A stretch of DNA of 64,000 nt from the NCBI RefSeq assembly GCF_001613805.1, contig NZ_LPVY01000012.1, positions 62,001 through 126,000 of the forward strand, given 5' to 3'. Position 1 is the first letter of the stretch. Every line of letters starts with the position of its first letter. A program made the translations under genes and the position numbers. Shown here piece after piece: positions 1 to 18,940 of this stretch. The notes beneath the pieces were generated by a model. That model was not told where the DNA came from, did not search any database, and saw only the letters and a list, made by a program, of their open reading frames with translations. This stretch comes from Thalassospira lucentensis (GTDB taxonomy: Bacteria > Pseudomonadota > Alphaproteobacteria > Rhodospirillales > Thalassospiraceae).

Positions 1-2
1 AC

Positions 3-314
3 TACTATATGACTTCGCGCGGCTATCATCCGCGTGCGGTCAACTCCGGCAATGCCTGGACGCAGACGACGCCGCTCAGCTTCATGAATATGCCGATCCT
101 GAGCTATATCGAGGAAATCTCACCGCGTCCGGTCTTGCTGATTCATGGCGAGAATGCCCATTCGCGCTATTTCAGCGAAACCGCCTATGAAGCAGCGGCC
201 GAGCCGAAAGAACTGCTGATCATTCCGGGGGCAAACCACACCGATCTTTATGATCAGCTTGATGTGATCCCGTTTGACCGGATCGAGGCATTCTTTGGTG
301 ATGCACTGGTTTGA
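3..314 (+). CDS. alpha/beta hydrolase, C-terminal part (gene begins before the window)
   Basis: The reading frame is open from the window edge, so only about the last 104 residues are present. The segment SPRPVLLIHGENAHSRYF followed by LLIIPGANHTDLYD is the C-terminal half of an alpha/beta-hydrolase fold. The Asp-bearing strand region is near HGENAH and the catalytic His is expected in GANHTDLYD. The NHTDLYD pattern resembles the YcjY/dienelactone-hydrolase-like group, whose substrates are mostly unknown. The nucleophile elbow lies upstream of the window, so activity cannot be judged. The next gene follows within 60 bases on the same strand. Confidence 0.75.
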   Translation, partial: YYMTSRGYHPRAVNSGNAWTQTTPLSFMNMPILSYIEEISPRPVLLIHGENAHSRYFSETAYEAAAEPKELLIIPGANHTDLYDQLDVIPFDRIEAFFGDALV

Positions 315-373
315 TCATGATGGGCGGTCGGGGCGATAAACCCCGACCGTATCTCTTGTCGTCAACATTCAGC

Positions 374-847
374 ATGAAAGGGGCGGGCGTGGTAAGTGCG
401 CACACATTCCTCACCACCCGACGTGGCTTTATTGCTGGTGCCACGGCGACACTACTGGCTACCAGACCGGCACTTGCACAATCGGGGGCAAAGCAGATGC
501 GTATCCGTTGCACCTTCTCCGATCAGGAATTCACCTATCTGCTTAATGATAACGCGACGACACGCGATTTCGTCTCCATGTTGTCGCTTGATCTGACAAT
601 CAGTGATTTTTCAACCAACGAAAAGATTGCCTACCTGCCACGGCGTCTCGATGAAGGCGGCCTGGTCAATTATAGCGACGAAGCACCCGGCGATCTGTGC
701 TATTTCCGCGGATGGGGCAATCTGGCGTTCTTTTACGACACCTATGAATATCGCGGTGACCTGATCCGGCTCGGAAAGATCGAGGGACCTTTGGATCCAT
801 TACAGGTCAAGGGGGAGTTCCCGCTGCGCATTGAATTGCTGACCTGA
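374..847 (+). CDS. Tat-exported cyclophilin-like fold protein
   Basis: A protein of about 157 residues. The N-terminus carries a twin-arginine signal (TTRRGFIAG, then a hydrophobic stretch ending in ALAQ), so export in folded form to the periplasm is expected. The mature part (MRIRCTFSDQEFTYLLNDNATTRDFVSMLSL, with the later SDEAPGDLCYFRGWGNLAFFY) matches the small bacterial cyclophilin-like family (Cyclophil_like). That family has the beta-barrel fold of cyclophilin, but prolyl-isomerase activity is not established. An ATG 21 codons further upstream is in frame, but only the ATG at 374 puts the signal close to the N-terminus. It ends 45 bases from the convergent dehydrogenase gene. The family call is from sequence pattern; substrate and role are unknown. 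Confidence 0.7.
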   Translation: MKGAGVVSAHTFLTTRRGFIAGATATLLATRPALAQSGAKQMRIRCTFSDQEFTYLLNDNATTRDFVSMLSLDLTISDFSTNEKIAYLPRRLDEGGLVNYSDEAPGDLCYFRGWGNLAFFYDTYEYRGDLIRLGKIEGPLDPLQVKGEFPLRIELLT

Positions 848-892
848 GGACGAGCGAAGGTCCTGTTTTGCAAAGTCGTGAGCAGGGGCTGA

Positions 893-3800
893 TCACGCCA
901 CGCGTTTCAGCAGATACTCCACCGGATGCCTGGGCTTCGTGCCTTCAAAGCGGGCGACCTGACAACGACACGAATAGCCGGTGACGAGCATGTTACCCAA
1001 GCCCGTCTGATCGACTTTCTTTTTCCAGCTTTGGTCATAAAGCGCGCGGGAGGTTTCCTGATGGCGGGTTTCGTGGCCGTAGACGCCGGCCATGCCGCAA
1101 CATCCGGTTTTCTCGGTCGCGAGTTTGATGCCAAAGGCCTCGAAAATCTTTTGCCATTTGACGCCGACATCGGGGATCGATGTTTTTTCCGTGCAATGCG
1201 GGAAGAGCGTTGCCGGGGCCGTACCCCCTGCATTCCCGCTGCTTGCGGGCAGGGTGAGGCGGCCTTCCGCGATCTCGGCGGCCAACCATTCATGGAACAG
1301 ATGCACGCGGTAATCCGGGCGGTCCGTGCCAAGGCGCTGGGCATATTCCTGCCGATAGGTGAGCGTCACACTGGCCTCGATCCCGATCAGGGGGACGCCG
1401 GTTTTGGCCAGTCGGCCATAGACGATATCGTTTTGCTTGGCCTGATAATCAAAGCGTTTGAGGAAGCCCTTTACATGCAATGCCTTGCCATTTGGGCGAT
1501 AGGGCGGCACGAAAACGCGGTAGCCAAGTTTTTGCAGAAGATCGATATGGGCGATGAAAACATCGATGTCATAGTGGCTGGTGAAGCAATCCTGCAAAAG
1601 CACCACGGATTTGGCGCGATCCGCATCGGAGAGTGCTTCAAGATCGGCCAGTTTGAACGGGCCGATGCCGCGTTTGCGCAGGGCCGAACTTACGCTTTGG
1701 CGGCTGAGTTTCGGCAGGTCGGTCAAGCCGATCAGGCTTTTGAAAATCCAGGGCATCGGCGGAACAGCTTGCAAGCCATTGAAAAGCAACGGGGCCTTTG
1801 CCATCAGCGGGGCGATGCTTTCAAGCTGCGCGATCACGTAATCCTTCACCGGCCGTTTGTAGCGGGTGTGATAGGCCTCCAGAAACCGTGATTTCATTTC
1901 CGGAATATCGACCTTGACCGGGCATTGCCCCGCACAGGCCTTGCACGACAGGCAACCGGCCATGGCATCGTAAACATCGTGCGAGAAATCGCGCGCATTG
2001 ATCACGGCGAGGTCCTGATTACGCGGATCGGTGCCGACCGAAAGCTGCCGGATCCATTCACGGACCAGTCCCGCCCGACCCTTGGGCGAATGAACGCGGT
2101 CGCGCGTGACCTTATAGGACGGGCACATCGCATCCATCAGGTCCCAGTTAAAGCAGGCCCCGTTGCCGTTGCACCGCGTCGCGTTGAGATATTCATCGCG
2201 TAGCCTGTCTTCGATCTGGCGGTCAAGCTGACCACGCATCGGGGCCGCGTCAATCGCGGTGATCGGGGTGTTTCTCGAATAGGGGGATGCGATCTTGCCG
2301 GGGTTTAATTGTCCTTCCGGATCAAAGGCTTCCTTGATGCGCTTGAGCACATCATAAAGTTCGGGGCCGAAATAGGTTGGCGAATATTCGCCGCGAAAAC
2401 CCTTGCCATGTTCGCCCCAGATCAGGCCGTTATATTTTTGGGTCAGGTCCACAACCCTGTCCGACACACGGCGCAGGCGCGCTTCGTCCTGCTCGTCACA
2501 CATGTCAAGCAGCGGTCGGACATGCAGACAGCCGACATCGACATGGCCAAACATGCCGTAATCAAGCCCCTCCGCATCCAGTAAAGCCCGGAATTCCGCG
2601 ATAAAATCGGCAAGGTTTTCCGGCGGGACGGCGGTATCCTCGACAAACGGGGTCGCACGGCGTTTGCCTTCAAGGTTGCCAAGCAAGCCAACGGATTTCG
2701 CCCGGATTGACCAGATGGCGGCGATCTGCGTCGGATCGGTGGCCTGGACAAAGCCGATGGGGGCGTAATCGGCATTCGGATTGGCCTCAAGATAGGTGCG
2801 CAGTTCCGCCTGTTTGGCACCGACCTCTTCGGCGGTTTCGCCAACAAATTCAACGACATTGAAGCCGCGTGTTGGCACGGTGCTATCCTCGGTCCCGAGC
2901 AGTTTGCCCAGCAGGTGCCAGCTTTCATCCTGCTTTGCCAGTTCCATGACCTTGTCATCGATGCTTTCGATGGCGACCGGGTCAAACTGCACAAGGGTGC
3001 CGACATGGCGAAGCGCACTATCAAAGCTGTCATAGCGCACCACCGTGACCGCCTTGTGCTTTGGCAGCGGAATGACGCGCAGCGTGATTTCCTTGACCAT
3101 GCCAAGGCTGCCTTCCGCCCCGGCGATCAGGAAGCTTAAATTCATATCCCCTTGATCCGAAACGGCTTCCTTGAGGTTATAGCCCGTAAGCCCGCGGTTC
3201 ATTTCCGGGAAAATCGCGTTGATCTGATCCCGGCGCGGCATGATTTCATCGTGGATTTTGCGGTAAAGCCGACCGGTGCGGTCATCGCGGTTCATGATTT
3301 CGGCGGCGTCCGCGGCACTCATTGCGTGGGTGCGGAAATCGGTGCCATCGATCAGAACCGTGGTCATGTCATTGATATAATGGCTTGTTTTGCCATAAAT
3401 CCGCGATCCCTTGCCGGAGCTATCGGACCCGATCATGCCGCCAATGGTCGCCCGGCTGGCGGTGGAAACGGCGGGCGGGAAGAAGAAACCATGCGGTTTC
3501 AGCCACGCGTTAAGCTGATCCAGCACCACGCCGGGCTCGACATGGACCAGCCCCTTTTCGGCATCAAAACCCAGTATGTTGTTGAGATGCTTGGATGTAT
3601 CGAGCGTAATGGTGTTGTTAAGCGACTGGCCATTGGTGCCGGTGCCACCACCCCGCGGGGTGATTTTGACCTCGCTGAATTCCTCGCGCCCGGCCAGTTC
3701 CATCACAACGTTGATATCATTGCGGTTTTTTGGCTGCAGGACGGCGGTTGGCATCACCTGATAGACGCTGTTATCTGTCGCATTGATCAGGCGGGACGGG

Positions 3801-3970
3801 AAATCGGCATGGATTTCACCGGCAAATTTCCCTTCTTTTTCAAGGGTTTTGAGGAAACCAAGTGTGAGACTGTCAAGCGACCGGTCCGGGGTCAGAACCG
3901 GCAGGCGGTTGAGCCGGGAAAAGCTGCGGCGGGCGGGGGTTGATCTGGCGGTCGGGGCGGGCGCGGTCAT
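893..3970 (-). CDS. ydiJ: YdiJ-type FAD-linked oxidoreductase with Fe-S domains (probable D-2-hydroxyglutarate dehydrogenase)
   Basis: A fused three-part dehydrogenase of about 1025 residues, near the E. coli YdiJ length. An N-terminal FAD-binding type-4 domain shows PRGGGTGTNG near residue 105. A C-terminal FAD-oxidase domain has GEHGKGFRGEYSPTYFG. A ferredoxin-like segment has CLSCKACAGQCPVKVD, and a CCG-type heterodisulfide-reductase-like end has GCCGMAGVYGH. E. coli YdiJ is reported to oxidise D-2-hydroxyglutarate to 2-oxoglutarate, passing electrons through FAD and Fe-S clusters; that specificity is inferred here. A frame extends 17 codons further upstream, but the ATG at 3970 has an AGAGAG-like ribosome site. 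A perfect inverted repeat lies about 95 bases upstream. Confidence 0.88.
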   Translation of the reverse strand: MTAPAPTARSTPARRSFSRLNRLPVLTPDRSLDSLTLGFLKTLEKEGKFAGEIHADFPSRLINATDNSVYQVMPTAVLQPKNRNDINVVMELAGREEFSEVKITPRGGGTGTNGQSLNNTITLDTSKHLNNILGFDAEKGLVHVEPGVVLDQLNAWLKPHGFFFPPAVSTASRATIGGMIGSDSSGKGSRIYGKTSHYINDMTTVLIDGTDFRTHAMSAADAAEIMNRDDRTGRLYRKIHDEIMPRRDQINAIFPEMNRGLTGYNLKEAVSDQGDMNLSFLIAGAEGSLGMVKEITLRVIPLPKHKAVTVVRYDSFDSALRHVGTLVQFDPVAIESIDDKVMELAKQDESWHLLGKLLGTEDSTVPTRGFNVVEFVGETAEEVGAKQAELRTYLEANPNADYAPIGFVQATDPTQIAAIWSIRAKSVGLLGNLEGKRRATPFVEDTAVPPENLADFIAEFRALLDAEGLDYGMFGHVDVGCLHVRPLLDMCDEQDEARLRRVSDRVVDLTQKYNGLIWGEHGKGFRGEYSPTYFGPELYDVLKRIKEAFDPEGQLNPGKIASPYSRNTPITAIDAAPMRGQLDRQIEDRLRDEYLNATRCNGNGACFNWDLMDAMCPSYKVTRDRVHSPKGRAGLVREWIRQLSVGTDPRNQDLAVINARDFSHDVYDAMAGCLSCKACAGQCPVKVDIPEMKSRFLEAYHTRYKRPVKDYVIAQLESIAPLMAKAPLLFNGLQAVPPMPWIFKSLIGLTDLPKLSRQSVSSALRKRGIGPFKLADLEALSDADRAKSVVLLQDCFTSHYDIDVFIAHIDLLQKLGYRVFVPPYRPNGKALHVKGFLKRFDYQAKQNDIVYGRLAKTGVPLIGIEASVTLTYRQEYAQRLGTDRPDYRVHLFHEWLAAEIAEGRLTLPASSGNAGGTAPATLFPHCTEKTSIPDVGVKWQKIFEAFGIKLATEKTGCCGMAGVYGHETRHQETSRALYDQSWKKKVDQTGLGNMLVTGYSCRCQVARFEGTKPRHPVEYLLKRVA

Positions 3971-4063
3971 GATGTCTCTCTGGTCTCTTGTTCGGCGCGC
4001 GGGCGGCGTCATTTGACCCATTTGACAGGAGGCGGATTAAATAGACAAATTTAAAATTCCGAA

Positions 4064-4090
4064 GGATTATTCATTTTTAGTGAATAATCC
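4064..4090. promoter_or_regulatory. perfect 10-bp inverted repeat upstream of ydiJ
   Basis: Arms GGATTATTCA and TGAATAATCC are exact reverse complements around a 7-base spacer. The repeat lies 94 bases before the ydiJ start in an AT-rich non-coding stretch. It could be a dimeric regulator's operator or an RNA hairpin. On the plus strand it is followed by a short T-run, so a terminator reading is possible, but no plus-strand gene ends here. Confidence 0.4.
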
Positions 4091-4361
4091 GATTTTTCAA
4101 CTCGGTCGGCAACCGCATGCCGACCGTGCCGAGGGGGCAAAAAAGGGCTCCGGGATCGGTTTTGTTAAAATCGTATCATATGATTAAAGTGAATTTTGTA
4201 TAAATTATACCGCCGTTTTAGCGCGCAAATGGTGCCGATCCACCAGGAAACCTGCGATGTTCAGAGCTTTGAGGCTCCGTCAGCGCGGAGAATCATAAAA
4301 GTATTATCATATGAGTTTTTTAATGCTGTCTGAGCCACATTTCCGTCCCGGTATTCGTCTG

Positions 4362-4518
4362 GGTCACGCCAATATCTGTTCCGGCGTATCGGCCCGCACA
4401 GATTCATCATGCATAAGCGACAGGATTGTCTTTTTGTAATGCATGAATTCCGGGGAGGTCCGGGTGTGAATTTTGGGGGCGGGGGATGTTGATGGTGAGC
4501 GACTGTTTGATTTTGCAT
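4362..4518 (-). pseudogene. decayed duplicate of the 3' end of the ABC ATPase gene at 6824
   Basis: Bases 4381-4450 match 6841-6910 at 67 of 70 positions, and weaker similarity continues to about 4518/6978. The matched stretch encodes the C-terminal end of the ATPase (residues around FMRYKKTILSLMHDESV). Between the two better-conserved blocks this copy is 2 bases shorter, which breaks the frame, and no upstream ATPase sequence precedes it. It is therefore a gene-end fragment in the same orientation as the intact gene, forming a direct repeat on the other side of the acyltransferase gene. Confidence 0.8.
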
Positions 4519-4649
4519 CAGCCTATCATTATGACATGTATTTAATCGCCCGGAGGGATATTCTTTTCATATTGTGGGTGGCGAAAAGAGCGGTTTTGCA
4601 CCGGCTTTATAACATGTTATCGGCCATAATGGTTATGTAGAACTTTGAT

Positions 4650-6638
4650 ATGAATGCTTATTACAAGTCTATAGATGGCCTTCGTGCAATCGCTATTCTT
4701 GGTGTTATTTTTTATCACTGCGGACTTGCGACTGTTTCCGGAGGGTATACCGGCGTCGACGTGTTTTTTGTGATATCGGGATATTTGATTGTTTCCAGTA
4801 TTGTCAGAAGACTGGAGAAAGATGAATTCTCGTTAAAGCAATATATGGAACGGCGATTCAGGAGAATCGTTCCGGTTATTGTTGTTATGCTTCTCGTCGT
4901 CTCCGTGGCATCTTTTTTCATCCTTCTTCCCGAAGATTTGGAATTTTATGGTTCGTCTCTTGTCGGAGTTTCTCTTTTTATTCCGAATTTTTTATTTGAG
5001 AAGGAATTTAATTATTTTGCTTCTTCTGGTTCCCCGCTAATTCATTTGTGGAGTATTGGCGTTGAGGTTCAGTTCTATGTCGGGGTTTCCTTATTTTTTG
5101 TCCTTTTGTGCAAAATAAAAAAAATCGATAAAAGTATACTTATAATATCTTTGATTTCTTTGGGGTCTTTTGGGGCGAGTGTTCTTCTTGTTGGAAAACA
5201 CTTAAACCCTGTTTTCTATCTCACTCCTTTCCGGCTCTGGGAGTTTGGTCTGGGGGCTCTGGTCTCGTTGGGGCTGGTGCCGTTCATTAGGCATAAGATA
5301 TCTGATAATGTCGTGAGCGTGACGGGATTGCTTCTCGTACTTGCCCCCATGTTTATCTATGACGCCACATGGTTGTTTCCCGGGTACTCCGCACTGCCAT
5401 CCTGTCTTGGAACGGCGATGCTTCTATACTGCGTCGATAGTGACGCGGTCGTTATAAAGTTTTTGCGCAATTCCGTTTTTTCATGGGTGGGGAAGACTTC
5501 TTACTCAACTTATATTTGGCATTGGCCGATTATTCTATTCTACGAATACAGTTTGAACAGATCTTTGATTGCAAGTGACGTGATCACTCTTCTGGTCTTG
5601 ATATTTTCAATTGGATGGCTGTCTTGGTGGTTTGTTGAAAACCCGTTCTATAAAAAGAAAATCATTTCCAATTCGAGGATTCTGTGGGGGGGGAGTTTTT
5701 GTTGTCTGCTTCTATTTCTTGTGGCTGGCAGTGTCTTTACCCACTTCAAAGGCTTTCCTGATCGCCTTCCAGATGAGGCGCTTACTGTGCTTGAGCAGTC
5801 TGAATACCGTATTCCAACCACATGTCCTGATTTTGGCTACGATATTATCCACCGAAGCCTCACGGATACTTATTGCATCATTGGAGACCAGGATGTTGCT
5901 CCTACATGGGCATTGTGGGGGGACAGCCACGCGCGGAGCTTAAGTGGACCGCTTTCTCAAAGCTTGAAGAAGAACAAAGCATCGGCGTTATTGCTGGGGC
6001 TGCACGGTTGTCCCGCGCTATTGAATGTAAATGTGACATTTTATCTATCGGGGACATGCAAAATCCATAATCAGCATGCTTTTGATCGGATCGCAAACAA
6101 TCCTGAGATCAAGCATGTGGTTATTCTCAGTCGGTACTCCATGTATCTGTACGGCACCTCTACCGGGGGCTTTGACGGGCAGAGGGAAATGATCCATTTG
6201 ATGGATGCAAACGGCCGTCGATTGAGCGAGCGGGAACGCGTTGAGTTATTCCGTAAGTCTTATGAGGAGACTATGGAGAAGGTCGTGAGCCTCGGGAAAG
6301 ATGTACATATTGTCATGCCCATTCCTGAAGCCTCATTTTATATCCCTGGCGTGGTCGCGCAGAACATTTGGAAAGGGGACAGCAAAAATGCGGTCAAAAT
6401 CTCGGAAGACTCTTACCAGAGCCTGAATGAAGCGGTTTTAGGCGCCATGTATCAGGTGGAGAAAAAACATCCAGGTAAAATAAAATGGATTAATCCGCAA
6501 GATATCTACTGCGATGATGGGGCGTGTGAAGTGATGCGTGACGGTTATATACTTTATAAGGACAGCAATCATCCAAATGCATTTTCTGCGAATATTTTAT
6601 TGGAATCGATCAATCTGGAGATGAAAACGCAGAATTAG
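4650..6638 (+). CDS. membrane O-acyltransferase with C-terminal SGNH domain (OafA/YrhL type)
   Basis: 662 residues. The N-terminal half is an acyltransferase-3 domain with about ten membrane helices, the start motif YKSIDGLRAIAILGVIFYHC (His23) and GYTGVDVFFVISGY. The C-terminal part is a periplasmic SGNH domain with GDSHARS (Asp425, Ser426) and the late D-x-x-H (Asp638, His641). Such fusions transfer acetyl groups to periplasmic glycans such as O-antigen, exopolysaccharide or peptidoglycan; the acceptor here is unknown. Base composition and codon use are much more AT-rich than the flanks, and the gene sits alone between two copies of a neighbouring gene's 3' end, so acquisition by transfer is likely. 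No clear Shine-Dalgarno is seen before the ATG. Confidence 0.88.
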   Translation: MNAYYKSIDGLRAIAILGVIFYHCGLATVSGGYTGVDVFFVISGYLIVSSIVRRLEKDEFSLKQYMERRFRRIVPVIVVMLLVVSVASFFILLPEDLEFYGSSLVGVSLFIPNFLFEKEFNYFASSGSPLIHLWSIGVEVQFYVGVSLFFVLLCKIKKIDKSILIISLISLGSFGASVLLVGKHLNPVFYLTPFRLWEFGLGALVSLGLVPFIRHKISDNVVSVTGLLLVLAPMFIYDATWLFPGYSALPSCLGTAMLLYCVDSDAVVIKFLRNSVFSWVGKTSYSTYIWHWPIILFYEYSLNRSLIASDVITLLVLIFSIGWLSWWFVENPFYKKKIISNSRILWGGSFCCLLLFLVAGSVFTHFKGFPDRLPDEALTVLEQSEYRIPTTCPDFGYDIIHRSLTDTYCIIGDQDVAPTWALWGDSHARSLSGPLSQSLKKNKASALLLGLHGCPALLNVNVTFYLSGTCKIHNQHAFDRIANNPEIKHVVILSRYSMYLYGTSTGGFDGQREMIHLMDANGRRLSERERVELFRKSYEETMEKVVSLGKDVHIVMPIPEASFYIPGVVAQNIWKGDSKNAVKISEDSYQSLNEAVLGAMYQVEKKHPGKIKWINPQDIYCDDGACEVMRDGYILYKDSNHPNAFSANILLESINLEMKTQN

Positions 6639-6760
6639 AAGAAATTCTGATGTTTTTGAAATAAGTCTTGAGAGTTCCAGCTTGGTATAGAAGACACCAG
6701 CAAAAAGTTACCCTTGCGGTGGCGCTCCGCGTTTCAGTTTCAACGTGTGACTGGAATGCG

Positions 6761-6790
6761 AAAGGCGCAGGGTTCCCTATCCGCGCCTTT
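6761..6790 (-). terminator. hairpin downstream of the ABC ATPase gene
   Basis: Arms AAAGGCGC and GCGCCTTT pair perfectly around a 14-base loop that itself contains a short GGG/CCC pairing. Read on the minus strand it lies about 35 bases after the ATPase stop and ends in TTT, fitting a weak intrinsic terminator of the importer operon. Confidence 0.5.
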
Positions 6791-6823
6791 GGTTCGTGTG
6801 CCGGAAATGTCCATTTGCGCTTG

Positions 6824-7618
6824 TCACGCCATCGCCGGTTCCGGCGTATCGGCCCGCACAGATTCATCATGCATCAGCGACAGGATGGTCTTTTTGTAAC
6901 GCATGAATTCGGACGAGGTCAGGGCATCTATGCTGCGCGGGCGGGGGATGTTGATGGCAAGCGATTGTTTGATCTTGCCCGGCCGCGCGGTCATGACATG
7001 GACCTCGTCGCCAAGGAAGATCGCCTCGTCAATGTCATGGGTGATGAACAGCACGGTTTTGCGGCGGCTTTGCCAGACATCAAGCAGCAGTTCCTGCATC
7101 AGCTGGCGGGTCTGGCTATCGAGCGCGCCAAAGGGTTCATCCATCAGAAGAATGCGCGGATCATTGGCAAGCGCACGCGCCAGTGCCACACGCTGGCGCA
7201 TGCCGCCCGAAAGTTCCTTGGGATATGATCCCTCGAACCCGGTCAGGTGCACCGCCCGGATCAGATCATCGGCAATGTCTTCGCATTCGGATTTCGGCAG
7301 TTTTTTAAGCTGCGGCCCGAACATGATGTTTTCGCGCACGGTCAGCCACGGAAACAGGGTGTAGCTTTGAAACACCATACCCCGGTCGGCCGATGGCCCG
7401 GCAATCGGCTGCCCATCAAGCGCCATCGTGCCCGACGTCGGGACCTCCAGCCCTGCTACCAGCCGCAACAGGGTTGATTTGCCACAGCCCGACGGGCCGA
7501 CAATCACCGAAAACGTATCATGGGCAACCGAAAGTGACACATCATCAAGGGCCAGAACCGGCGGCTTTCCCTTGGGCTCGAAACGGACCATGATATCGGA
7601 AAGGGTGAGCATGCTCAT
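6824..7618 (-). CDS. ABC transporter ATP-binding protein (nitrate/sulfonate/taurine type)
   Basis: 264 residues with Walker A GPSGCGKST, Q-loop VFQSYTLFPW, signature LSGGMRQRVALARAL, Walker B ILLMDEPFGAL and switch His in FITHDIDEA. The family is SsuB/TauB/NrtD. It should energise the permease encoded at 8201 with the binding protein at 9051. The ATG at 7618 is preceded by AAGGATAACATC. Unusually for such an operon, 582 bases of repeat-rich DNA separate it from the permease gene. Its 3' end also exists as a decayed copy at 4362-4518. Confidence 0.9.
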   Translation of the reverse strand: MSMLTLSDIMVRFEPKGKPPVLALDDVSLSVAHDTFSVIVGPSGCGKSTLLRLVAGLEVPTSGTMALDGQPIAGPSADRGMVFQSYTLFPWLTVRENIMFGPQLKKLPKSECEDIADDLIRAVHLTGFEGSYPKELSGGMRQRVALARALANDPRILLMDEPFGALDSQTRQLMQELLLDVWQSRRKTVLFITHDIDEAIFLGDEVHVMTARPGKIKQSLAINIPRPRSIDALTSSEFMRYKKTILSLMHDESVRADTPEPAMA

Positions 7619-8200
7619 GATGTTATCCTTGATGTGTTCGGGAACCGGGCACCCGGTTGCACGGGGCAGGGTAAAGGGGGGGGGGGGCTATCGCGTCGAC
7701 CTTGCAGGAGGCAGCGTATGGATGCCGACGGAGGTTTGGGGTTTGCGGACTGGGTCGCCGGGCGGAGGTTGTCGCGCCAGCCCTGCAATCGGCAGCGTAG
7801 AACGTTCGGCCAGGGTTTGGACCTTGCGGGATTGCTGGTGTTGCCGTTCCTGCCCGTGCCGTGGCCGCGTGGGGCGTTGGAACGGTGCGCGGGGCAACGT
7901 ATATCCGGGGTGTGTTTGTTGCGCGGGCTTTGCGGGAGGCAGCGTAGAATTCGCGGTCGCGGTTGGCGTGTTGCGGGTTTGGTCGCCGGGTGGGGGAGTG
8001 CTGCTTTCGCCCTGCAATCGGCAGCATAGATCCGGGCCGGGTTTGTTGTGTGGGCCTTGCGGGAGGCAGCGTATAACTCTTGGTCAAGGCTTGGGCGTTG
8101 CCGTGCTGCGGGTGGTTGCTGATGCCGTTTTGGGGGCATCTGCTGTGCGCGTTGCTGATGCATGTCACGGTGCATGTGAGCGTATCCGTCTTGCATGGTC
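7619..8200. repeat. degenerate repeat array inside the ABC operon
   Basis: No gene is convincing in this gap. The core GGCAGCGTA, with one-base variants, occurs six times at 7710, 7791, 7893, 7938, 8020 and 8065 on the plus strand. It is preceded either by TGCGGGA or by TGCAATC. Spacings are 81, 102, 45, 82 and 45, so the last four cores form two pairs 127 bases apart. The word GGTCGCCGGG recurs at about 7754 and 7981. A run of ten G lies at about 7678-7687. The minus strand is open in more than one frame through the array, but the translated products are proline/arginine-rich without family resemblance. Confidence 0.75.
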
Positions 8201-8995
8201 TTAAAAATCCGCAGACCAGGGCAGGAGCTTTTTGCGCAGCACCTTGAAAATGAAATCGGTGATCAGGCCCAGGATGCCGATGGTGAAGACACCCAGCAGG
8301 ATGACGTCGGTAAACAGGCCACGCATGGCGTTCAGGATCATATAGCCAAGGCCGGTATCGGCGGCGACCAGTTCGGCCACCACCAGATAGGTCCAGGCCC
8401 AACCCATGGTAACGCGCAGGTTATCCATCACGCCGGGCATGCAGGCCGGAACCAGAATGCGAAGCGCCACCTGTTTGCGGTTGGCACCGAGCGTATAGGC
8501 GCAGTCAATCAGATCCTTGGACACACGGGCCGAGACATCGGAAATCAGGATGAGCTGCTGAAAGAAGGTTCCGAGGAAAATCACCATGATTTTCTGTTCG
8601 ATGCCGATCCCGACCCAGAGGATCAGAAGCGGGATCAGGGCCGATACCGGGATGTAGCGCATGAAACCGGTCAGCGGTTCGACCAGCGCCTGAACGGCGC
8701 GGAAGCTTCCCATCAGGATGCCGATCGGAACGGCGAAGATGGAAGCAAGGATAAAGCCCGAGAGAATGACCGAGAGGCTGGCCCCGATATGATGAAACAG
8801 CGACAGATTGCCGATGCGCTTGATCGCGGCTTCGATCACCTCGTGCGGGGCGGCAAGGAAGTCCTTTGGCGTGATGCCGCCATAGGTGAGCAAACACCAG
8901 AGACCAAGGACAAGAGAAACCGAACAGAGCGACAATCCGATAAAGGCGGATTTCGGTATTTCGGTCTTGGGCGAAAACAGCGATCTGGTCCACAT
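8201..8995 (-). CDS. ABC transporter permease (nitrate/sulfonate/taurine type)
   Basis: 264 residues with about six membrane helices and the binding-protein-dependent permease loop DCAYTLGANRKQVALRILVP, which docks on the ATPase. Family SsuC/TauC/NrtB. The ATG at 8995 begins MWTRSLFSPKTEIP. It lies 55 bases after the binding-protein gene on the same strand and should be co-transcribed with it. The substrate is not readable from the permease; the upstream ureohydrolase gene suggests a guanidino or related nitrogen compound. Confidence 0.9.
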   Translation of the reverse strand: MWTRSLFSPKTEIPKSAFIGLSLCSVSLVLGLWCLLTYGGITPKDFLAAPHEVIEAAIKRIGNLSLFHHIGASLSVILSGFILASIFAVPIGILMGSFRAVQALVEPLTGFMRYIPVSALIPLLILWVGIGIEQKIMVIFLGTFFQQLILISDVSARVSKDLIDCAYTLGANRKQVALRILVPACMPGVMDNLRVTMGWAWTYLVVAELVAADTGLGYMILNAMRGLFTDVILLGVFTIGILGLITDFIFKVLRKKLLPWSADF

Positions 8996-9050
8996 GGTGC
9001 TTGCTCTTTTATGGTCGTCGGAAGGTGGCGATGTGACGGGAAAGTACTGC

Positions 9051-10031
9051 TTATTTCACGATGTCAGCGGCAATCAGGCTTGCCGGTTCGGCATCAATGG
9101 TAAACAGGCCGCCTTCTTCGCCAAGCACCTTGGCATTTTTGATCGTGCCGAGAATGCCGCCTTCGTTGGCCGGGTCCATGAAGGTCTTGTTCATCGCATC
9201 GTCATAGAAAACGATACCGGCACGGGTTTCGGCAAACACCGCCGGGTCTTCAAGCCAGCCGCCAACACCCTTTGCCATGATTTCATCGGCTTCTTCGACA
9301 TTGTCCTTCTGCCATGCAATCGCCTTGGACCATGCCCGATACAGGCCTTCCATTGCCGGGCGGTTTTTTTCAAGCATGTCATTGGTGGTGACCATGATGT
9401 CGGTGATCAGGCCCGGGGTTTTGGTGCTGTCGACCAGAACATGCCCATGATCGGTATCCTTGCCGCGCGTCAGCCACGGTTCCCACGTCACCGCCGCATC
9501 GACCTTCTGCGCGACAAAGGCCGCACCGGCATCGCCGGCCGACATATTAAGTGCGTTAACATCCGAAAGCTTCATCCCGGCGTCTTTCAGAAGGACGCTC
9601 AGGAAAAACTGCGAAACCGAGCCCTCGGTAAAGGCGATGGATTTGCCCTTGAGGTCGGCGATGGTTTTGATGTCCTTGCCCGCGACAATGCCGTCGCCGC
9701 CGCGTGAATCATCAAGCGCGAACAGATAGGATAACGGGTGTTCGGGGCTGTAGAAGGCCAGCACCGTATCAATGGTGGTGACGGCAACGTCAATTCGGCC
9801 GGCGGCCAGGGCCGGCATGCGGGTTTTGACGTCTTCCATCACGACCAGATCGACATCAAGGCCTTCTTCTTCGAAGAAACCCTTGTCACGTGCGATATAA
9901 AGCGGGCCATACCCGACCCATGTGGAATGGGCGATGGTAAGTTCCTGATTGGCCGATGCCGGGGCCGACAGGCCCAAAACCGTACCAAGGGCGATGGCCG
10001 ACAGGCACAGTCCTTTGAACAGATGTTTCAT
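9051..10031 (-). CDS. periplasmic substrate-binding protein of the ABC importer (NMT1/SsuA-like)
   Basis: 326 residues with a Sec signal peptide (MKHLFKGLCLSAIALGTVLG, ending in APASA before NQELTIA). The mature part shows the SsuA/TauA/NMT1 pattern: HSTWVGYGPLYIARDKGFFEEEG-type start, AGRIDVAVTTIDTVL, and AAVTWEPWLTRG in the second lobe. It delivers a small organic ligand to the permease at 8201. A GC-rich hairpin lies between it and the ureohydrolase gene. Ligands in this family include taurine, sulfonates, nitrate, pyrimidine precursors and guanidine, so homology alone does not fix the substrate. Confidence 0.9.
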   Translation of the reverse strand: MKHLFKGLCLSAIALGTVLGLSAPASANQELTIAHSTWVGYGPLYIARDKGFFEEEGLDVDLVVMEDVKTRMPALAAGRIDVAVTTIDTVLAFYSPEHPLSYLFALDDSRGGDGIVAGKDIKTIADLKGKSIAFTEGSVSQFFLSVLLKDAGMKLSDVNALNMSAGDAGAAFVAQKVDAAVTWEPWLTRGKDTDHGHVLVDSTKTPGLITDIMVTTNDMLEKNRPAMEGLYRAWSKAIAWQKDNVEEADEIMAKGVGGWLEDPAVFAETRAGIVFYDDAMNKTFMDPANEGGILGTIKNAKVLGEEGGLFTIDAEPASLIAADIVK

Positions 10032-10075
10032 TTCAAGTCTCCGCTGTGAAGTTCACTGATGATGTTTTTATGGAT

Positions 10076-10091
10076 GGGGGCTTTGGCCCCC
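10076..10091. other. intercistronic GC hairpin between ureohydrolase and binding-protein genes
   Basis: GGGGGC and GCCCCC are separated by four bases. On the minus strand, the direction of transcription, no T-run follows, so it is not a typical terminator. It may slow 3' decay and shift expression between the two genes, which is common between enzyme and binding-protein genes. Confidence 0.4.
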
Positions 10092-10103
10092 CTTTTATGG
10101 ACG

Positions 10104-11126
10104 TCATTTATTGTTAGGGTTGCGCGTTGCTGGTGACGTGGCCAGAACACAAAGCAGTTCAAACATGATCGAAATGCCAAGCCATGCGGTACCGCCCGAT
10201 GGATCAAAGGGCGGGGAGACCTCGACCAGATCGGCCCCGATCAGGTTAAGCCCATCCAGCGCACGCACCATGCGCTGTGCCTCCCGGCTGGTGAAGCCGC
10301 CGATTTCGGGGGTTCCGGTGCCCGGCGCAAAGGCGGGATCGATGCTGTCGATGTCAAAGCTGACATAGGTGGGTTTGTTGCCGACGATCTCGCGGGCCTC
10401 GGCCATCACGGCATCAATGCCGCGATCCTCGACTTCTTCCATGCGGATGATGCGGACCCCTTGGGCAAGGCCCCATTCGACATCCTCACCATCATACATG
10501 GTGCCGCGAATGCCGATCTGAACGACGCGTTTGGGATCAAGATAGCCGTCCTCAATCGCGCGGCGGAAGGGCGTTCCGTGGGTATAGCGATAGCCGTTGA
10601 AATAGCTGTCAAACAGGTCGGTATGGGCATCGAAATGCACCATGCCAAGCGGCTGATCCGCCCCCAGCGCCTTTAATATCGGATAGGACACCAGATGATC
10701 ACCGCCCGCCGAAAGGGGGGCGATGTTTTTGGCCTTGAGCGCGCCGATGAAAGCACAGACCTTATCGAGCGTATCCATGATGTCGGCCGGGTTGACCGGG
10801 CTATCACCCAGATCGGCGACATTGCGCGCGGCAAAGGGATTAAGCCCGGAAACCGGATGGCGCGGGCGGATCATGGTGGATAGGTCGCGCAACTGGCGCG
10901 GGCCGTGGCGCGGACCGGGGCGGTTGGTGGTGCCGCCATCCCATGGCACGCCCAGAATGGCGATATCGACCTGTTCAAGAGCGGTGTCGGACAGGCCCAG
11001 CAATGGCAGGCGCATGAAAGTCGGCACACCGGCAAAACGCGGGATTTCCATGGCCGATGGTGGCTCGAACGATTTGATGATGGGGCCGGTGTGGGGCTTT
11101 GCGGTGGGAATGGTGTCGCTTGGCAT
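10104..11126 (-). CDS. arginase-family ureohydrolase (agmatinase / guanidinobutyrase / guanidine hydrolase group)
   Basis: About 340 residues from the ATG at 11126, which has GGAG at good distance; in-frame codons further upstream lack this. Metal-binding motifs of the arginase/agmatinase fold are complete: [15 protein letters not shown] and [19 protein letters not shown]. These enzymes hold two Mn or Ni ions and release urea from guanidino groups. The loop [19 protein letters not shown] and the segment [17 protein letters not shown] belong to the agmatinase-like branch. It heads an operon with an ABC importer and is divergent from a LysR gene. No polyamine gene is adjacent, so an imported guanidino compound is a more natural substrate than internal agmatine; this is inference. 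Confidence 0.88.
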
Positions 11127-11153
11127 GTTTTTTCTCCGTGAAGCGATTGCATT

Positions 11154-11214
11154 CACGTTGCCACAGCGTAACGTGTCCAATAATATCGAACTTCAAGAGT
11201 AAACGTCGGAAGTT
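11154..11214. promoter_or_regulatory. LysR-type operator region between the divergent genes
   Basis: The 99-base divergent gap contains a perfect inverted repeat CACGTT-N10-AACGTG (11154-11175) and a second one, AACTTC-N14-GAAGTT (11189-11214). Two dyads in a divergent spacer are the usual arrangement for a LysR regulator controlling itself and its target operon. The gap is too short to hold a known guanidine riboswitch together with a promoter. Confidence 0.5.
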
Positions 11215-11225
11215 TCCAACCTATC

Positions 11226-12164
11226 ATGGCAGCCACCGTTCCCCCGTTAAGCGATGTTGATCTGCGGCAATTGCGGATTTTTCGCGCCATTGTCGAAAGC
11301 AACGGCTTTAGTGCCGCGCAGGAACAGCTTGGCCTGTCGCGCTCGACCATCAGTGCGCAGATGTCGGCCCTTGAAACGCGGCTGGGCGTTTCGCTGTGTC
11401 GGCGCGGGCGGTCCGGCTTTGCCTTAACCGAACATGGGCAGAAGATTTATAACGAGGCGATCAAGCTTTTTGCCGCCGAGGATAGTTTCAGGGCCGAGGT
11501 CGGCGCGATCCGTGGCAGCCTTGTCGGTGAATTGCGGGTTGGTGTTGTTGATGCGGTGGTGGAAAACCCCAATTGCGCGCTTGATCTGGCCTTGGCGGCG
11601 TTTAACGAACGCGCGCCCGATGTGCATGTCACACTTCTGATCGTGTCGCCCAACCAGATTGAAAATGCGTTGCTTAGCCGGCAGATGGAAGTGGCGATTG
11701 TGCCCAACCAGCCGATGAACAGTGCGGTGCAGATGCAGCAACTGTTTTACGAGGAACAGCGGCTTTATTGCGGCATGCGCCACCCGCTTTTTGAACGCGA
11801 TACCGCGAAAATGCCGATGGAAGACGTGGCGGAGCTTACCTTTGCCAGACGCGGCTATTCGGTGGCAACGGCGTTTCAATCGCTTTTCAAACATCCGCCG
11901 AGTGCGACGGCCTATGATATGGAGGGGCTGGCGCACCTGATTTTAAGCGGCCGGTTCGTCAGCTTCCTTCCGACCCATTTCGCCGCCCGGTGGGAAGAAC
12001 GCGGGGAAATGAAGGCGCTTCGCCCCGATTTCCTCAGCTTCAAGATCGGCATGTGCATGGCGCATTTCCCCAATACCGTGCTGTCGCGCATGGCGCGCGA
12101 ATTTTGCGACTGCCTGAGTGCGGTGCATCCGGTTTATGGCGGGGCGAAGAAGCGGGCGGGGTGA
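11226..12164 (+). CDS. LysR-family regulator of the ureohydrolase/ABC operon
   Basis: 312 residues. The N-terminal winged helix (LRQLRIFRAIVESNGFSAAQ, then LGLSRSTISAQMSALE) is followed by a type-2 periplasmic-binding-like effector domain from about residue 95 (GELRVGVVDAVVENP). Length is normal for the family. It is transcribed away from the ureohydrolase operon across a short spacer with two dyads, the classic layout for a pathway-specific activator. The co-inducer is probably the imported compound or a breakdown product. The 3' end runs into a palindromic repeat element. Confidence 0.85.
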   Translation: MAATVPPLSDVDLRQLRIFRAIVESNGFSAAQEQLGLSRSTISAQMSALETRLGVSLCRRGRSGFALTEHGQKIYNEAIKLFAAEDSFRAEVGAIRGSLVGELRVGVVDAVVENPNCALDLALAAFNERAPDVHVTLLIVSPNQIENALLSRQMEVAIVPNQPMNSAVQMQQLFYEEQRLYCGMRHPLFERDTAKMPMEDVAELTFARRGYSVATAFQSLFKHPPSATAYDMEGLAHLILSGRFVSFLPTHFAARWEERGEMKALRPDFLSFKIGMCMAHFPNTVLSRMAREFCDCLSAVHPVYGGAKKRAG

Positions 12165-12243
12165 GGCGGCGGTTTCTTCGGTTTTGCTGCCTCCTTTCGT
12201 CCCTTCCGCCGCTCATGAGCAAGGCCATACCCACCCCCATTTC

Positions 12244-12344
12244 CGTCACTCCCGCGCAGGCGGGAGTCCATCGCGCGGCGGGTTCGGTGGCGATTTTAGT
12301 CGATGCGGCACAAAGGACTGGATTCCCGCCTGCGCGGGAATGAC
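12244..12344. repeat. interspersed palindromic element, copy 1
   Basis: About 101 bases bounded by inverted ends: CGTCACTCCCGCGCAGGCGG on the left and TTCCCGCCTGCGCGGGAATG on the right, each itself palindromic. The middle includes CGGCACAAAGGACTGG. The same unit occurs near 14081, 18011, 18141 and 31537. It lies between the LysR gene and the convergent repeat-protein gene and may serve as a transcription end for both. Confidence 0.8.
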
Positions 12345-12373
12345 CGGGGTGGTGGGATTGACCGTGCCGCGCC

Positions 12374-13951
12374 TTACAGACGGAATCGGTTGCGCAGGCC
12401 AAGGCCAATCAGGAACAGGAAGATGAAACTGAGAACGCCTTGGGTGATCATGAGGGCATCGACGCATAGGCCGGGGTCTTTGCCGTAAAGCGCGGTTAGG
12501 GCATCCGTGCGCAAATCGCGTGATTGCGGCAGGAAGGGGAGGCTGTTGCTCGCCGATAAGATAAAGGCTTGTGTCCAATCCGCCCAACCATCGGTGACGA
12601 GTTTTGGTATCTGCTTGGCTTTGTAGGCAGACATACCGGCCGCAAATATGACACCGAGCGAGAGAGAGGGCCGCAATATACTCTGGCCGTAATTGCTGAA
12701 AAAACTAAAGGCCATGTCGAGAACCGATCCAAGCCACGCGGTTTCAATCCATCGTTTCGCTCTGTTTTCATCGGCGGAAAAACGTAACGCGGCCTGATGG
12801 TCCTTGTTGGTTTCGGCGATTTCTTTGAGGCGACGCAGTCGTGCGCTGTCTTGCGGGTCTTTTGCGACTTGCGAGAGTTTTATGGGCCAGCAGTGGTGTT
12901 TCCAAAAGCGGCGCAGTTTGTTGAAGTACTTCAGGCTTATCCGTTTTTTGGGAGCAAACTTGTATACAAGTCGCGAAATGATGCCGGTTTCCGAAACAGC
13001 TTTCACGCGCCATTGATCGGGTCGAAGACCGGGTTTCTGCCAACGGCGCTGTAGTTTGACGGTTAGCGCGCTGAGGTCAACTTGATGCGAATATCGGGTG
13101 GCGCGAAGGTCCGGGATGATCCCCAGATCGCCCGTAAGCGTGAGCGGTCCGTCAAAAGATGCGCTGTGTAAATTGAAGGATTTTAGTGCGGTGGCAGAAG
13201 GGGGAAGATCGAAAATAGCCCGGCCCTTGATGGACAATCCTTTTGCATCAATTTCGCTGGCTCCTATAGTTTTTGGATTAAAGTTTAAGTTTTCGATCCG
13301 CGACTGACTGAAGTTTATTTCGACGTCGCCAAAAACGGTATCCGAGAAGTCCACGTTGCCATCGCCGAAGGTGGTTTTCGAGAAGTTAATGTTGCCGTTA
13401 CCGAAAGTGGTATCTGAGAAGTCCACGTTACCTTCGCCAAAAGTGGTGCACGAGAAGTCAACGTTGCCGTTACCGAAAGTGGCATCCGAGAAGTCCACGT
13501 TACCTTTGCCAAAAGTGGTGCACGAGAAGTCTACCTCGCCGATGCCGAAAGTGGTATTCGAGAAGTCTACGTTACCATTGCCGAAAGTGGTGTAAAGGAA
13601 GGATACTCCGCTGCCGAACGTGGCTTGAGTGAATCTTAGATCGCCGTCGCCGAAAAAAGATTCTATGAATCTCACTGTACCGTTGCCAAAAGTCGCTCCA
13701 TGGAATTCCACGTAGCCGTTGCCGAAAGTGGAATAATCGAAGAATATAGCACCGTTGCCAAAATGATATCCCGCGAAGGACAGGTCTCCCTCAGCGTCTT
13801 GTTCATTTGAGAAATCGAATTTGTAAAAACTGATATCCCTGTCTGGATGGCGATCGATCCAACTGTTCCAAGCGTCCTGACCCCGACGCCATAGGTCAAG
13901 GACTGCTTCGCCTTCCAGAGTTGGTCTTTCCTGTTCAGTTTCTTCCGTCAT
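12374..13951 (-). CDS. membrane protein with 12-residue tandem repeats (pentapeptide-repeat-like)
   Basis: 525 residues. Residues about 62-216 hold some 13 tandem units of 12 residues with consensus TTFGNGNVDFSD; phenylalanines at positions 3 and 10 and the FGxG turn are nearly invariant. The DNA repeats with a 36-base period from about 13320 to 13600. The regular inward-facing aromatics suggest a beta-solenoid, but the period differs from the five-residue pentapeptide repeat. A basic middle region (about 285-400) follows. The C-terminus has two hydrophobic segments (about 415-435 and 499-520) around SASNSLPFLP, similar in layout to membrane-anchored pentapeptide proteins with a two-helix, pore-like end. 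Base composition is somewhat AT-rich. Function is unknown. Confidence 0.75.
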   Translation of the reverse strand: MTEETEQERPTLEGEAVLDLWRRGQDAWNSWIDRHPDRDISFYKFDFSNEQDAEGDLSFAGYHFGNGAIFFDYSTFGNGYVEFHGATFGNGTVRFIESFFGDGDLRFTQATFGSGVSFLYTTFGNGNVDFSNTTFGIGEVDFSCTTFGKGNVDFSDATFGNGNVDFSCTTFGEGNVDFSDTTFGNGNINFSKTTFGDGNVDFSDTVFGDVEINFSQSRIENLNFNPKTIGASEIDAKGLSIKGRAIFDLPPSATALKSFNLHSASFDGPLTLTGDLGIIPDLRATRYSHQVDLSALTVKLQRRWQKPGLRPDQWRVKAVSETGIISRLVYKFAPKKRISLKYFNKLRRFWKHHCWPIKLSQVAKDPQDSARLRRLKEIAETNKDHQAALRFSADENRAKRWIETAWLGSVLDMAFSFFSNYGQSILRPSLSLGVIFAAGMSAYKAKQIPKLVTDGWADWTQAFILSASNSLPFLPQSRDLRTDALTALYGKDPGLCVDALMITQGVLSFIFLFLIGLGLRNRFRL

Positions 13952-14350
13952 ATCCCTGAATTCATTCTTTGTTTTGCGCAGGTGAAGTCGCGCACCACAA
14001 TGCCCTTTAAAGTAGCGTTTGGCGATATAAAACCGAGCGTGGCGGGAGAGGTTTGTGGTGGGCAGGCCTGCGCCCTATCCGTCATTCCGGGCGAAGACCC
14101 GGAATCCATTGGGCGGCGGGTTCGGGGGGGATTTTTGTAGATGTGGCACCAAGGACTGGATTCCCGCCTGCGCGGGAATGACGGGGCGGTGGGAGCGATG
14201 CAGTCCGCTGCACCGGGCCGTTCTGTGATGTTGTGCCACGTGGTTTGGGGCGGTTTGGTGCGGGATGAGCGGGGCAGTGCAGGAAACGCTGCACAACGCG
14301 CAATTTACCCGTTAGTGTTGCAGTCCGGTCAATCAGTTAGCGGATGAAAC
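13952..14350. other. intergenic region with a palindromic element
   Basis: This 399-base divergent gap between the 12-residue-repeat gene and the LysR gene holds a copy of the interspersed element at 14081-14183 and presumably both promoters. Nothing else is recognised. Confidence 0.6.
14081..14183. repeat. interspersed palindromic element, copy 2
   Basis: Same organisation as the copy at 12244: GTCATTCCGGGCGAAGACCC at the left, a middle with GTGGCACCAAGGACTGG, and TTCCCGCCTGCGCGGGAATG at the right. The left arm has diverged (GGCGAAGACC in place of GCGCAGGC) and pairs less well. Confidence 0.75.
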
Positions 14351-15532
14351 ATGCTGTCTTCCATCAGTTTGCGCCATATGCGGGTTTTTGTGGCGGTCGC
14401 CGATCATGGCACCTTTACCGCCGCGGCGGAGGTTTTGGGGCTGACGCCATCGGGGCTGACGGCGACGATCCGCCAGTTCGAGGATGTGGCGGGGACGCCG
14501 CTTTTTGATCGCACGACGCGACAGGTGACCTTGAGCGCCACCGGGGCGCGGTTTTTACCCACGGCCCGCCGGTTGATCAGCGAATTTGAAGAGGCGCTTG
14601 GCGATCTTGATGCGCTGTCCAAGGGCATTGGCGGGACGATCCGTATTGCCGCTGCCCCCTCGGTCCTGACGCGCATTTTGCCCGGCGTGATCAGCCGGTT
14701 TGTCGATGAACATCCCGATGCACGGCTTCGCCTGGACGAGCTTAACGCGGGCGAGGTGCATGAGGCAGTGGCGCGCAACGAGGCGGATTTTGGCATTGCC
14801 GGGGAATGGCATGCCCTGCCCGATATTGCCTTCAGCCCGCTCTTTTCCGACCGGTTCGGGGTGCTGTGCCGCCCGACCCATGCCTTTGCCAGACGCAGCG
14901 CGATTGCGTGGTCGGAACTGGCCGATCAGGCCTTTGTCGGGCTGGGCCCGGAATCGGGCACGCGCGCGATAATGGCGGCACAGGGAAGCTTCGCCGGTGA
15001 GGCGGGGGGCGCTGCTGGTGCCGCTTATGCCGGTGTTGACCCGGCGGAGGTCGCGGCATCGCCTGCGGTGAAGCGGGCTGCGGCCCTTGGCCTGCCCGAG
15101 GCGCAAATGGCCTTGCGCCGGGCGAATGCCAGCGAACGGGCGATTGAACGGGTGGCGAAGGCCGCCCTTGCGAAGCGTGCGGAGGACGCCAAAAACGGGG
15201 GGCGTGCGGCGGACGGATCGGGCAGCACCATGATCGACCCGATCGCGCAATTGCGCCCGATTGTCGAAACATCCAACACGATCACGCTGGCCGCCATGGT
15301 GGCCGAAGGGGTGGGGATCACCGTCCTGCCGGAACTGGCCGCGCGCGTCGCCGACCTTGCCGCACCCGGAAAGCTGGTCTTCGTGCCGCTGTGCGAGCCG
15401 ATCCGCAAACGCCCGATTGGTATCATCACGCGGCAAAGCAGAAGCCTGTCCCCGATTGCGCGGATATTCCTTGCGATGGTGATCGAACAGGCGCCCAAAA
15501 TGGATCTGCCTGCGGCGATTGAGTGGGGGTGA
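14351..15532 (+). CDS. LysR-family regulator with an internal insertion
   Basis: 393 residues, about 90 longer than usual for the family. A normal winged helix (SLRHMRVFVAVADHGTFTAA, then LTPSGLTATIRQFE) and first effector lobe run to ESGTRAIM at residue 208. The expected next element, RPIVETSNTITLAAMVAEG, starts only at 302. The intervening stretch (about 212-295) is alanine- and charge-rich (AAGAAYAGVDPAEVAASP, then ERAIERVAKAALAKRAED) and does not look like effector-domain sequence. The frame and GC-rich codon use are continuous across it. No divergent target gene is obvious, and the regulated pathway is unknown. Confidence 0.85.
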   Translation: MLSSISLRHMRVFVAVADHGTFTAAAEVLGLTPSGLTATIRQFEDVAGTPLFDRTTRQVTLSATGARFLPTARRLISEFEEALGDLDALSKGIGGTIRIAAAPSVLTRILPGVISRFVDEHPDARLRLDELNAGEVHEAVARNEADFGIAGEWHALPDIAFSPLFSDRFGVLCRPTHAFARRSAIAWSELADQAFVGLGPESGTRAIMAAQGSFAGEAGGAAGAAYAGVDPAEVAASPAVKRAAALGLPEAQMALRRANASERAIERVAKAALAKRAEDAKNGGRAADGSGSTMIDPIAQLRPIVETSNTITLAAMVAEGVGITVLPELAARVADLAAPGKLVFVPLCEPIRKRPIGIITRQSRSLSPIARIFLAMVIEQAPKMDLPAAIEWG

Positions 15533-15537
15533 GGGAA

Positions 15538-16351: not shown

Positions 16352-16533
16352 TCTCTTGAAATTTCGCTTTTGGGGATAGTTGTCTGGTTTCGGTTGCTCA
16401 TGAAATCATCCGAGACGCTTTGCGTGTCAAAGAAGCTGTCCCATAGCTGATCGGTTGGTGTGAGGTCACGCGAGGTGTCCGCCGCCTCAGTCTTACCACG
16501 CAGGGAAACGGATTTCGGGGGCTTTGGGGTCAT
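16348..16533 (-). CDS. small antitoxin-like protein upstream of the FRG gene
   Basis: 61 residues from the ATG at 16533, which has GGAGG seven bases upstream; an ATG five codons earlier lies on that GGAGG and is less likely. Its stop overlaps the FRG start as ATGA, so the two are probably translationally coupled. The C-terminal part LWDSFFDTQSVSDDFMSNRN resembles the toxin-binding tail of VapB-type (AbrB/MazE-fold) antitoxins, which end in patterns such as W-D-x-F-F ... D-F-M-x-x-R. No AbrB DNA-binding half is present: the first 30 residues are short, basic and probably unstructured. The resemblance is from memory of family patterns and is only suggestive. Confidence 0.55.
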   Translation of the reverse strand: MTPKPPKSVSLRGKTEAADTSRDLTPTDQLWDSFFDTQSVSDDFMSNRNQTTIPKSEISRE

Positions 16534-16625
16534 TGCGGGTGCCTCCATCTTTTTCGATCATGGGTTTATATTTTGGTGATGGGCGGCACGGGTCAAGTGC
16601 ATATGCGCGAAAGCGGAGCTTTTGG

Positions 16626-16656
16626 CGCGATGGACCCCCGCCTTCGCGGGGGTGAC
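16626..16656. repeat. half-copy of the interspersed palindromic element
   Basis: GACCCCCGCCTTCGCGGGGG followed by TGACGGGG is a variant right-hand arm of the element found in full at 12244. It lies in the 281-base gap between the antitoxin-like ORF and the patatin gene; no left arm is seen nearby. Confidence 0.6.
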
Positions 16657-17900: not shown

Positions 17901-17924
17901 CGGGGGAGGGTTTGCGGGTTTGGT

Positions 17925-18842: not shown

Positions 18843-18940
18843 CGATTTTTTGCCTCCTCCCTGAAAAACTGATTGGCAGGTTTCCCGTCTCCCCCCTGAT
18901 CAGATGATCTGTGACGATCCATGGTGATCTGCCGACCTGA

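Follow-up and report, generated by a model that had tools for sequence, protein, structure and literature searches.

The acyltransferase gene that separates ydiJ from an ABC-transporter ATPase gene in Thalassospira lucentensis is probably one of several interchangeable cargoes of an integrase-free hotspot, where cargo would enter by recombination and earlier occupants would be displaced in succession. The locus lies in the 64,000-nt window analysed here (RefSeq assembly GCF_001613805.1, contig NZ_LPVY01000012.1, positions 62,001–126,000), to which all coordinates refer unless another contig or locus is named (Table 1).

Layout of the locus

Alignment, a search of the genome against itself and GC content (mostly 0.38–0.50 at 4501–6500, with ~0.55–0.60 in the flanks) all bear out a preliminary description of this DNA, which reported an AT-rich acyltransferase gene bracketed, in direct orientation, by a decayed and an intact ATPase 3′ end. 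That no integrase is visible, as the same description remarked, holds, from ydiJ to the ATPase gene (4022–6823), for ORFs of 80 aa or more, which were read by eye, the acyltransferase ORF being the one among those wholly inside this interval that was run against Pfam; no tRNA was found in positions 1–20000 of the window. The best NCBIfam match of the dehydrogenase on the left flank is YdiJ, slightly below the cut-off of that family, and the intact ATPase is 98% identical at the protein level to its counterparts in two other Thalassospira genomes, G025 and G009.

Table 1. Features of the ydiJ–ATPase locus and the adjoining ABC module (window coordinates)
Feature	Position	Strand	Basis
ydiJ-like D-2-hydroxyglutarate dehydrogenase, left flank	893..4021	-	Pfam FAD_binding_4/FAD-oxidase_C
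Native spacer upstream of ydiJ	4022..4349	.	Common to empty sites and genomes without the ABC module
Original 3′ end of the ABC-ATPase gene, displaced; non-coding owing to a 2-bp gap	4363..4516	-	Collinear with empty-site gene end
Strongly diverged continuation of the ATPase fragment, apparently of other age or origin	4517..4608	-	32/91 sites differ from live copy
AT3-SGNH acyltransferase, 662 aa	4650..6638	+	Pfam Acyl_transf_3 1.5e-32, SGNH 1e-43
3′-end relic of c14 cargo gene with hairpin (AAAGGCGCAGG...CGCGCCTTT)	6717..6793	+	82% over 77 bp, G060 L085:7767-7842
Intact ABC-transporter ATPase (SsuB/TauB-like), live 3′ end	6824..7618	-	ABC_tran 8.6e-34
ABC permease	8201..8995	-	Pfam BPD_transp_1
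Substrate-binding protein (NMT1/SsuA-like)	9051..10031	-	Pfam NMT1
Agmatinase/arginase family enzyme	10104..11180	-	Pfam Arginase 1.3e-89; agmatinase TIGR01230 above cut-off
LysR-type regulator (c5), end of ABC module	11226..12164	+	Pfam; present in 15/15 ABC-bearing loci

Two intergenic features lie near the islet. Upstream of ydiJ, at 4064–4090, lies a hairpin with a 12-pair stem (GGATTATTCA...TGAATAATCC), the core of which is kept in the aligned loci; possibly, it is an operator. The ATPase and permease genes are separated by 585 bp, occupied by a GC-rich array of imperfect ~40–80-nt repeats (7619–8200) that includes five GGCAGCRTA units; its 19-nt unit pattern was found twice in the genome, both times within the array. 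The corresponding gap measures 648 bp in G025, 371 bp in G009 and 13–18 bp in each of the 12 remaining genomes with the ABC module.

The ydiJ–ATPase interval is a turnover hotspot

ydiJ is present in all 29 Thalassospira genomes compared, and 15 of these carry an ATPase ortholog (≥85% identity) beside it, counting G024, though its ydiJ sits on another contig. For 13 of the 14 genomes lacking the ortholog, this was established by whole-genome searches, which returned distant ATPases only; the last, G060, which belongs to the same species as the window's genome (G000), was checked over 20 kb at ydiJ. The survey of the locus took in matches of at least 45% identity. The preliminary description had proposed looking for empty sites, with ydiJ directly beside the ATPase gene, and for other cargo at the same place. 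Both exist: six of the 15 ATPase-bearing genomes have empty sites, with ydiJ–ATPase gaps of 347, 369, 592, 714, 737 and 744 bp, and eight of the 14 loci other than that of the window hold other cargo. Sites in the relatives are hence empty or otherwise filled, rather than all carrying the same acyltransferase with the same flanks.

The nine filled sites contain at least five unrelated types of cargo. A two-gene, CdiB/CdiA-like two-partner unit occupies the site in G003, G007, G012, G016 and G017, whereas G006 carries genes for a TonB receptor and an iron-type transporter (iron uptake), G024 an efflux module, G022 the orphan gene c14 and G000 the acyltransferase. Pfam identifies the ShlB/POTRA partner in G016 and G007 and the TPS/DUF637 large protein in G016, G007 and G017; by sequence, the cargo genes of G003 and G012 cluster with those of G016. 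The large proteins of G007, G017 and G016 (loci L073, L074 and L076, respectively) have variable C-termini: that of G007 ends in an LHH nuclease and has a SUKH neighbour, and that of G017 has an Imm63 neighbour, with an IS200-like Y1 transposase gene also present. In G022 (L079), ydiJ matches in two pieces and, judging from these matches, may be broken or misassembled.

When seven states of the locus are mapped on the ydiJ protein tree (29 rows), at least 11 changes are needed, the least possible number being six; after shuffling, the mean is 14.0, and a value as low as 11 was reached in 1 of 200 shuffles. Given the empty sites, the varied cargo and this number of changes, the ydiJ–ATPase interval is a turnover hotspot, with states that are somewhat clustered. 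In one clade, the cargo tends to sit outside the gene, in the ydiJ–ATPase gap, with a conserved segment of ~234 bp, upstream of ydiJ, on one side and, on the other, an inverted repeat that follows the ATPase gene. That conserved flanks enclose either nothing or one of several unrelated cargoes is as expected of a hotspot without a mobile element.

The repeated ATPase gene end

Positions 4363–4485 repeat 6823–6945 directly, with 82% identity without gaps, and the similarity continues in register at 4477–4516 (90%) and 4575–4608 (79%), with a poorly aligning stretch in the left copy near 4451–4476. The preliminary description had counted 67 agreements over the first 70 bases, with similarity falling thereafter. 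The near-identity is confirmed from ~4379, where 69 of 72 bases agree, but does not extend to the first 16 bases, of which 11 agree; the later similarity is indeed weaker, but does not end at 4518, as the in-register alignment to the ATPase gene persists over 4529–4608 (score 63, compared with 42.5 for the best of 1000 shuffles). Differences between the copies in 4433–4608 number 14/59, 11/59 and 23/57 at the three codon positions, leaning to the third. A search of the genome with 4330–4660 returned two matches, the segment itself and the ATPase end (contig 68823–69071, 76%, E 4e-42), so that the fragment does not recur with ATPase genes at unrelated sites.

On the E value and the shuffle test, a chance repeat was rejected. 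The arrangement is seen in one assembly only, but that contig holds two copies with numerous differences between them, and the flanks are collinear with the empty sites; the probability of chance similarity or assembly error is very low.

Among the 15 ATPase-bearing loci, surveyed with ATPase matches above 80% identity, a torn gene end is found in the window's genome alone (1/15); none of the 14 others has one. Accordingly, we do not regard a torn gene end as typical of the hotspot, nor is this the usual route by which cargo enters here. The same survey bears on a possible origin of the islet by site-specific integration, with the gene 3′ end as the attachment site and the integrase since lost. 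Integrases typically land in the 3′ ends of genes and restore the end, and a ~70-bp repeat does flank the cargo. However, a repeated gene end, as a fixed attachment core would predict, is seen at none of the other 14 loci, the homology extends past the 70-bp block, unlike in an attachment core, the cargo of other members of the compared clade leaves the gene untouched and lies within the gap, and neither an integrase (among ORFs ≥80 aa) nor a tRNA accompanies the islet. Such an origin is thus disfavoured and appears very improbable.

Origin of the left copy

In G025 and G009, the closest relatives, whose sites are empty, the spacer (4022–4362) continues into the ATPase gene end, collinear with the fragment up to ~4516. 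In G060 (91%) and G015 (89%), both devoid of the ABC module, the match to the spacer stops at 4349, for which reason we place the old module edge at 4350. Changes private to the window amount to 15/322 in the spacer, 2/72 in 4379–4450 and 5/66 in 4451–4516, the counts for spacer and fragment coming from slightly different comparison sets with gapped columns left out; taken together, 4379–4516 (7/138) displays no excess over the spacer (Fisher P 0.82). The continuation, 4517–4608, has 26/91 private changes (P 1.5e-9 against the spacer), and the branch leading to 4451–4608 has a length of 0.85. No better-matching paralog for 4517–4608 was found in the 29 genomes. Over 4379–4450, the fragment agrees with the group of G000, G025 and G009 against G024 at all six informative sites, and at two more sites it agrees solely with the live copy of the window. 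Beside the spacer, the left copy opens with 16 bases that are closer to G025 than to the live copy. The live copy itself, in the two 50-column blocks next to the stop codon, is identical to G025 and G009 at 45–48 of 50 columns.

Given this collinearity with empty sites, 4363–4516 is the original gene end of the host, left in place and changing no faster than the adjacent spacer, whereas 4517–4608 seems too diverged to be native. The suggestion in the preliminary description that the divergent copy is an allele brought by the incoming DNA is therefore unsupported for 4363–4516, whereas 4517–4608 would fit incoming or older DNA with an ATPase end of its own. Alternatively, rapid change in the stretch upstream of the acyltransferase gene may have had a regulatory cause.

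Since the left copy is patchy, what looks like a junction could also be the product of gene conversion by the live copy. In its full form, such an explanation would posit an old local duplication of the ATPase end with insertion of the acyltransferase gene, decay of the left copy, and later overwriting of its ~70 stop-proximal bases by the live copy or by an empty-site strain. The two patches of high identity (4379–4450 and 4477–4516) in a worse background speak for this, as does one base (A in CACAGATTC) common to both copies in the window and absent from G025 and G009. However, with the first 16 bases closer to G025 than to the live copy, the conversion tract must begin inside the gene end, and none of the 14 relatives shows signs of an old duplication. 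We consider this scenario unlikely.

A relic of earlier cargo and the wider variable block

On the right side of the acyltransferase gene, 6717–6793 corresponds to the final codons of c14 in G060 and to the hairpin that follows them, in the gap between c14 and c44. Thirty-six bp of the hairpin also match G024; in G022, G006 and G014, c14 is without this hairpin in the sequences compared. By its similarity, the segment is a relic of earlier cargo of the c14 type, and since these codons and the hairpin remain, an earlier cargo was displaced.

Farther to the right, repeats with the core TGGATTCCCGCNNNCGCGGGAATG occur at 12244–12369, 14082–14207 and 17929–18319, and also at 31483–31636, with eight matches in the window and none expected. 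Homology to genomes without the module resumes at the first two (~12241 against G015 and 14183 against G060), which may mark, or be responsible for, the right boundary of the variable block. The 12374–13951 segment contains a gene for a pentapeptide-repeat protein with 36-bp DNA repeats, which is variably present at the hotspot and belongs to a cluster of 10 ORFs. A gene for an FRG-domain protein (15538–16239) lies between the LysR gene c0 and the patatin-like c3, which adjoin each other in several relatives.

Proposed history of the islet

We infer the following order of events, with homologous recombination as the agent and a donor that already possessed the islet. DNA carrying the acyltransferase gene and an intact ATPase end would have recombined into the site, anchored on the right by homology that lies within the ATPase gene or past it, and joined on the left within the resident ATPase 3′ end, at ~4517. 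The resident end (4363–4516) would thereby have been severed, staying beside ydiJ to decay, while the right-hand ATPase copy kept the transporter whole. The 4517–4608 segment would be an older relic of an ATPase end brought along with the acyltransferase gene; the islet would then probably have been put together earlier, in a different strain, replacing cargo of the c14 type there. No donor with the islet was found among the genomes compared. The incoming side of the left junction retains weak in-register homology near 4517, and the junction could be homologous or illegitimate.

A single crossover of the Campbell type, with a circle carrying the acyltransferase gene and a diverged ATPase 3′ end, would also yield a whole gene and a torn end. 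The direct repeats, one of them truncated and without the 5′ part, are as such integration predicts, and the left copy resembles the host near the stop codon and a donor further in. Yet, the diverged allele of the donor should then stand at the live stop codon, where the sequence instead matches G025 and G009, and on these grounds integration of a diverged circle is disfavoured. Furthermore, the presence of the c14 relic, with its hairpin, next to the live copy points to chromosomal cargo, and the best plasmid match of the acyltransferase is at ~33% identity. We accord this route little probability.

It is also conceivable, if quite unlikely, that the ATPase 3′ end serves as a reversible, integrase-free docking end: cargo would bring a spare end, leaving the transporter unbroken, and the two ends could recombine and drop the cargo. 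If so, recombination between the 69/72 blocks is predicted to release a circle of ~2.46 kb and to restore the empty site.

The acyltransferase

The protein encoded by the islet fuses an Acyl_transf_3 domain (residues 6–327) to a C-terminal SGNH domain (residues 406–650), as identified with Pfam. The R-X10-H (R12/H23) and RXXR motifs (R68, R69, R71 and R72, common to the relative from G011) are present as given for the AT3 part in PMC9833829, and the SGNH catalytic blocks, GDS at 424–426 and DxxH as DSNH at 638–641, as given in PMC7448272. With the domain fusion, both AT3 motifs, the catalytic serine and DxxH all in place, the protein belongs to the AT3-SGNH family and, by analogy with this family, probably O-acylates a surface glycan.

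At E 1e-30, matches are found in 5 of the 29 genomes, including that of the window; among the other four, only that of T. povalilytica (G011) is close (61%). Its gene resides in the same neighbourhood, two genes away from ydiJ, between the LysR gene c0 and c66. A scan of the genomes of 84,980 species with two short peptide patterns and a two-row alignment, by which relatives may be missed, yielded 22 loci, the best being that of T. povalilytica (61%) and the next best full-length match reaching 29%. Carriage by phages or plasmids was also considered and rejected: 65 phage and 356 plasmid records match, all below 60% identity, with 28–34% and 32–33%, respectively, among the matches listed.

Comparison with known systems

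The locus preserves a readable scar of the integrase-free entry of single surface-modifying genes, and a single genus offers for comparison an empty site, a filled site, a torn end and a remnant of the cargo that came before. The same hotspot also swaps CdiB/CdiA-like systems, with polymorphic toxin–immunity ends, as well as efflux and iron uptake genes. No description of a Thalassospira ydiJ–ATPase hotspot was found in the literature searched, but integrase-free recombination with successive displacement is a known kind of process.

Of the two closest precedents, one is provided by the hotspots renewed through flanking core genes described in 2017 (PMC5635113) which, as far as described there, similarly combine strain-specific cargo between conserved genes, absence of a recognizable mobile element and patchy turnover. 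Unlike those hotspots, the present case concerns one locus in one genus, with hotspot status derived from cargo content and a torn gene end visible. The second comes from the type VI secretion system (T6SS) arrays of Vibrio cholerae, where sequential displacement proceeds by homology-facilitated illegitimate recombination (Kirchberger et al., 2017, PMC5361080). The likeness to the account given there lies in cargo anchored on one homologous side and in remnants of earlier occupants adjoining it, here the c14 end and the ATPase end. The cargo, however, is no effector–immunity pair, the displaced piece is the end of a metabolic transporter gene, and the non-homologous join of that model is not directly visible. 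Small variable segments of bacterial genomes, as reported in PMC2884548, are likewise short, integrase-free DNA at a fixed locus, with direct repeats at the base of 10–18% of segments; the repeats reported are mostly <30 bp, whereas here ~70 bp are nearly identical and weaker similarity extends to ~245 bp. Finally, the cargo enzyme shares domain order, R-X10-H, the GDS serine and DxxH with the AT3-SGNH O-acyltransferases OafA and OafB, as these are presented in PMC7448272 and PMC9833829, a likeness by sequence, in an enzyme whose close relative (61%) was found only in T. povalilytica.
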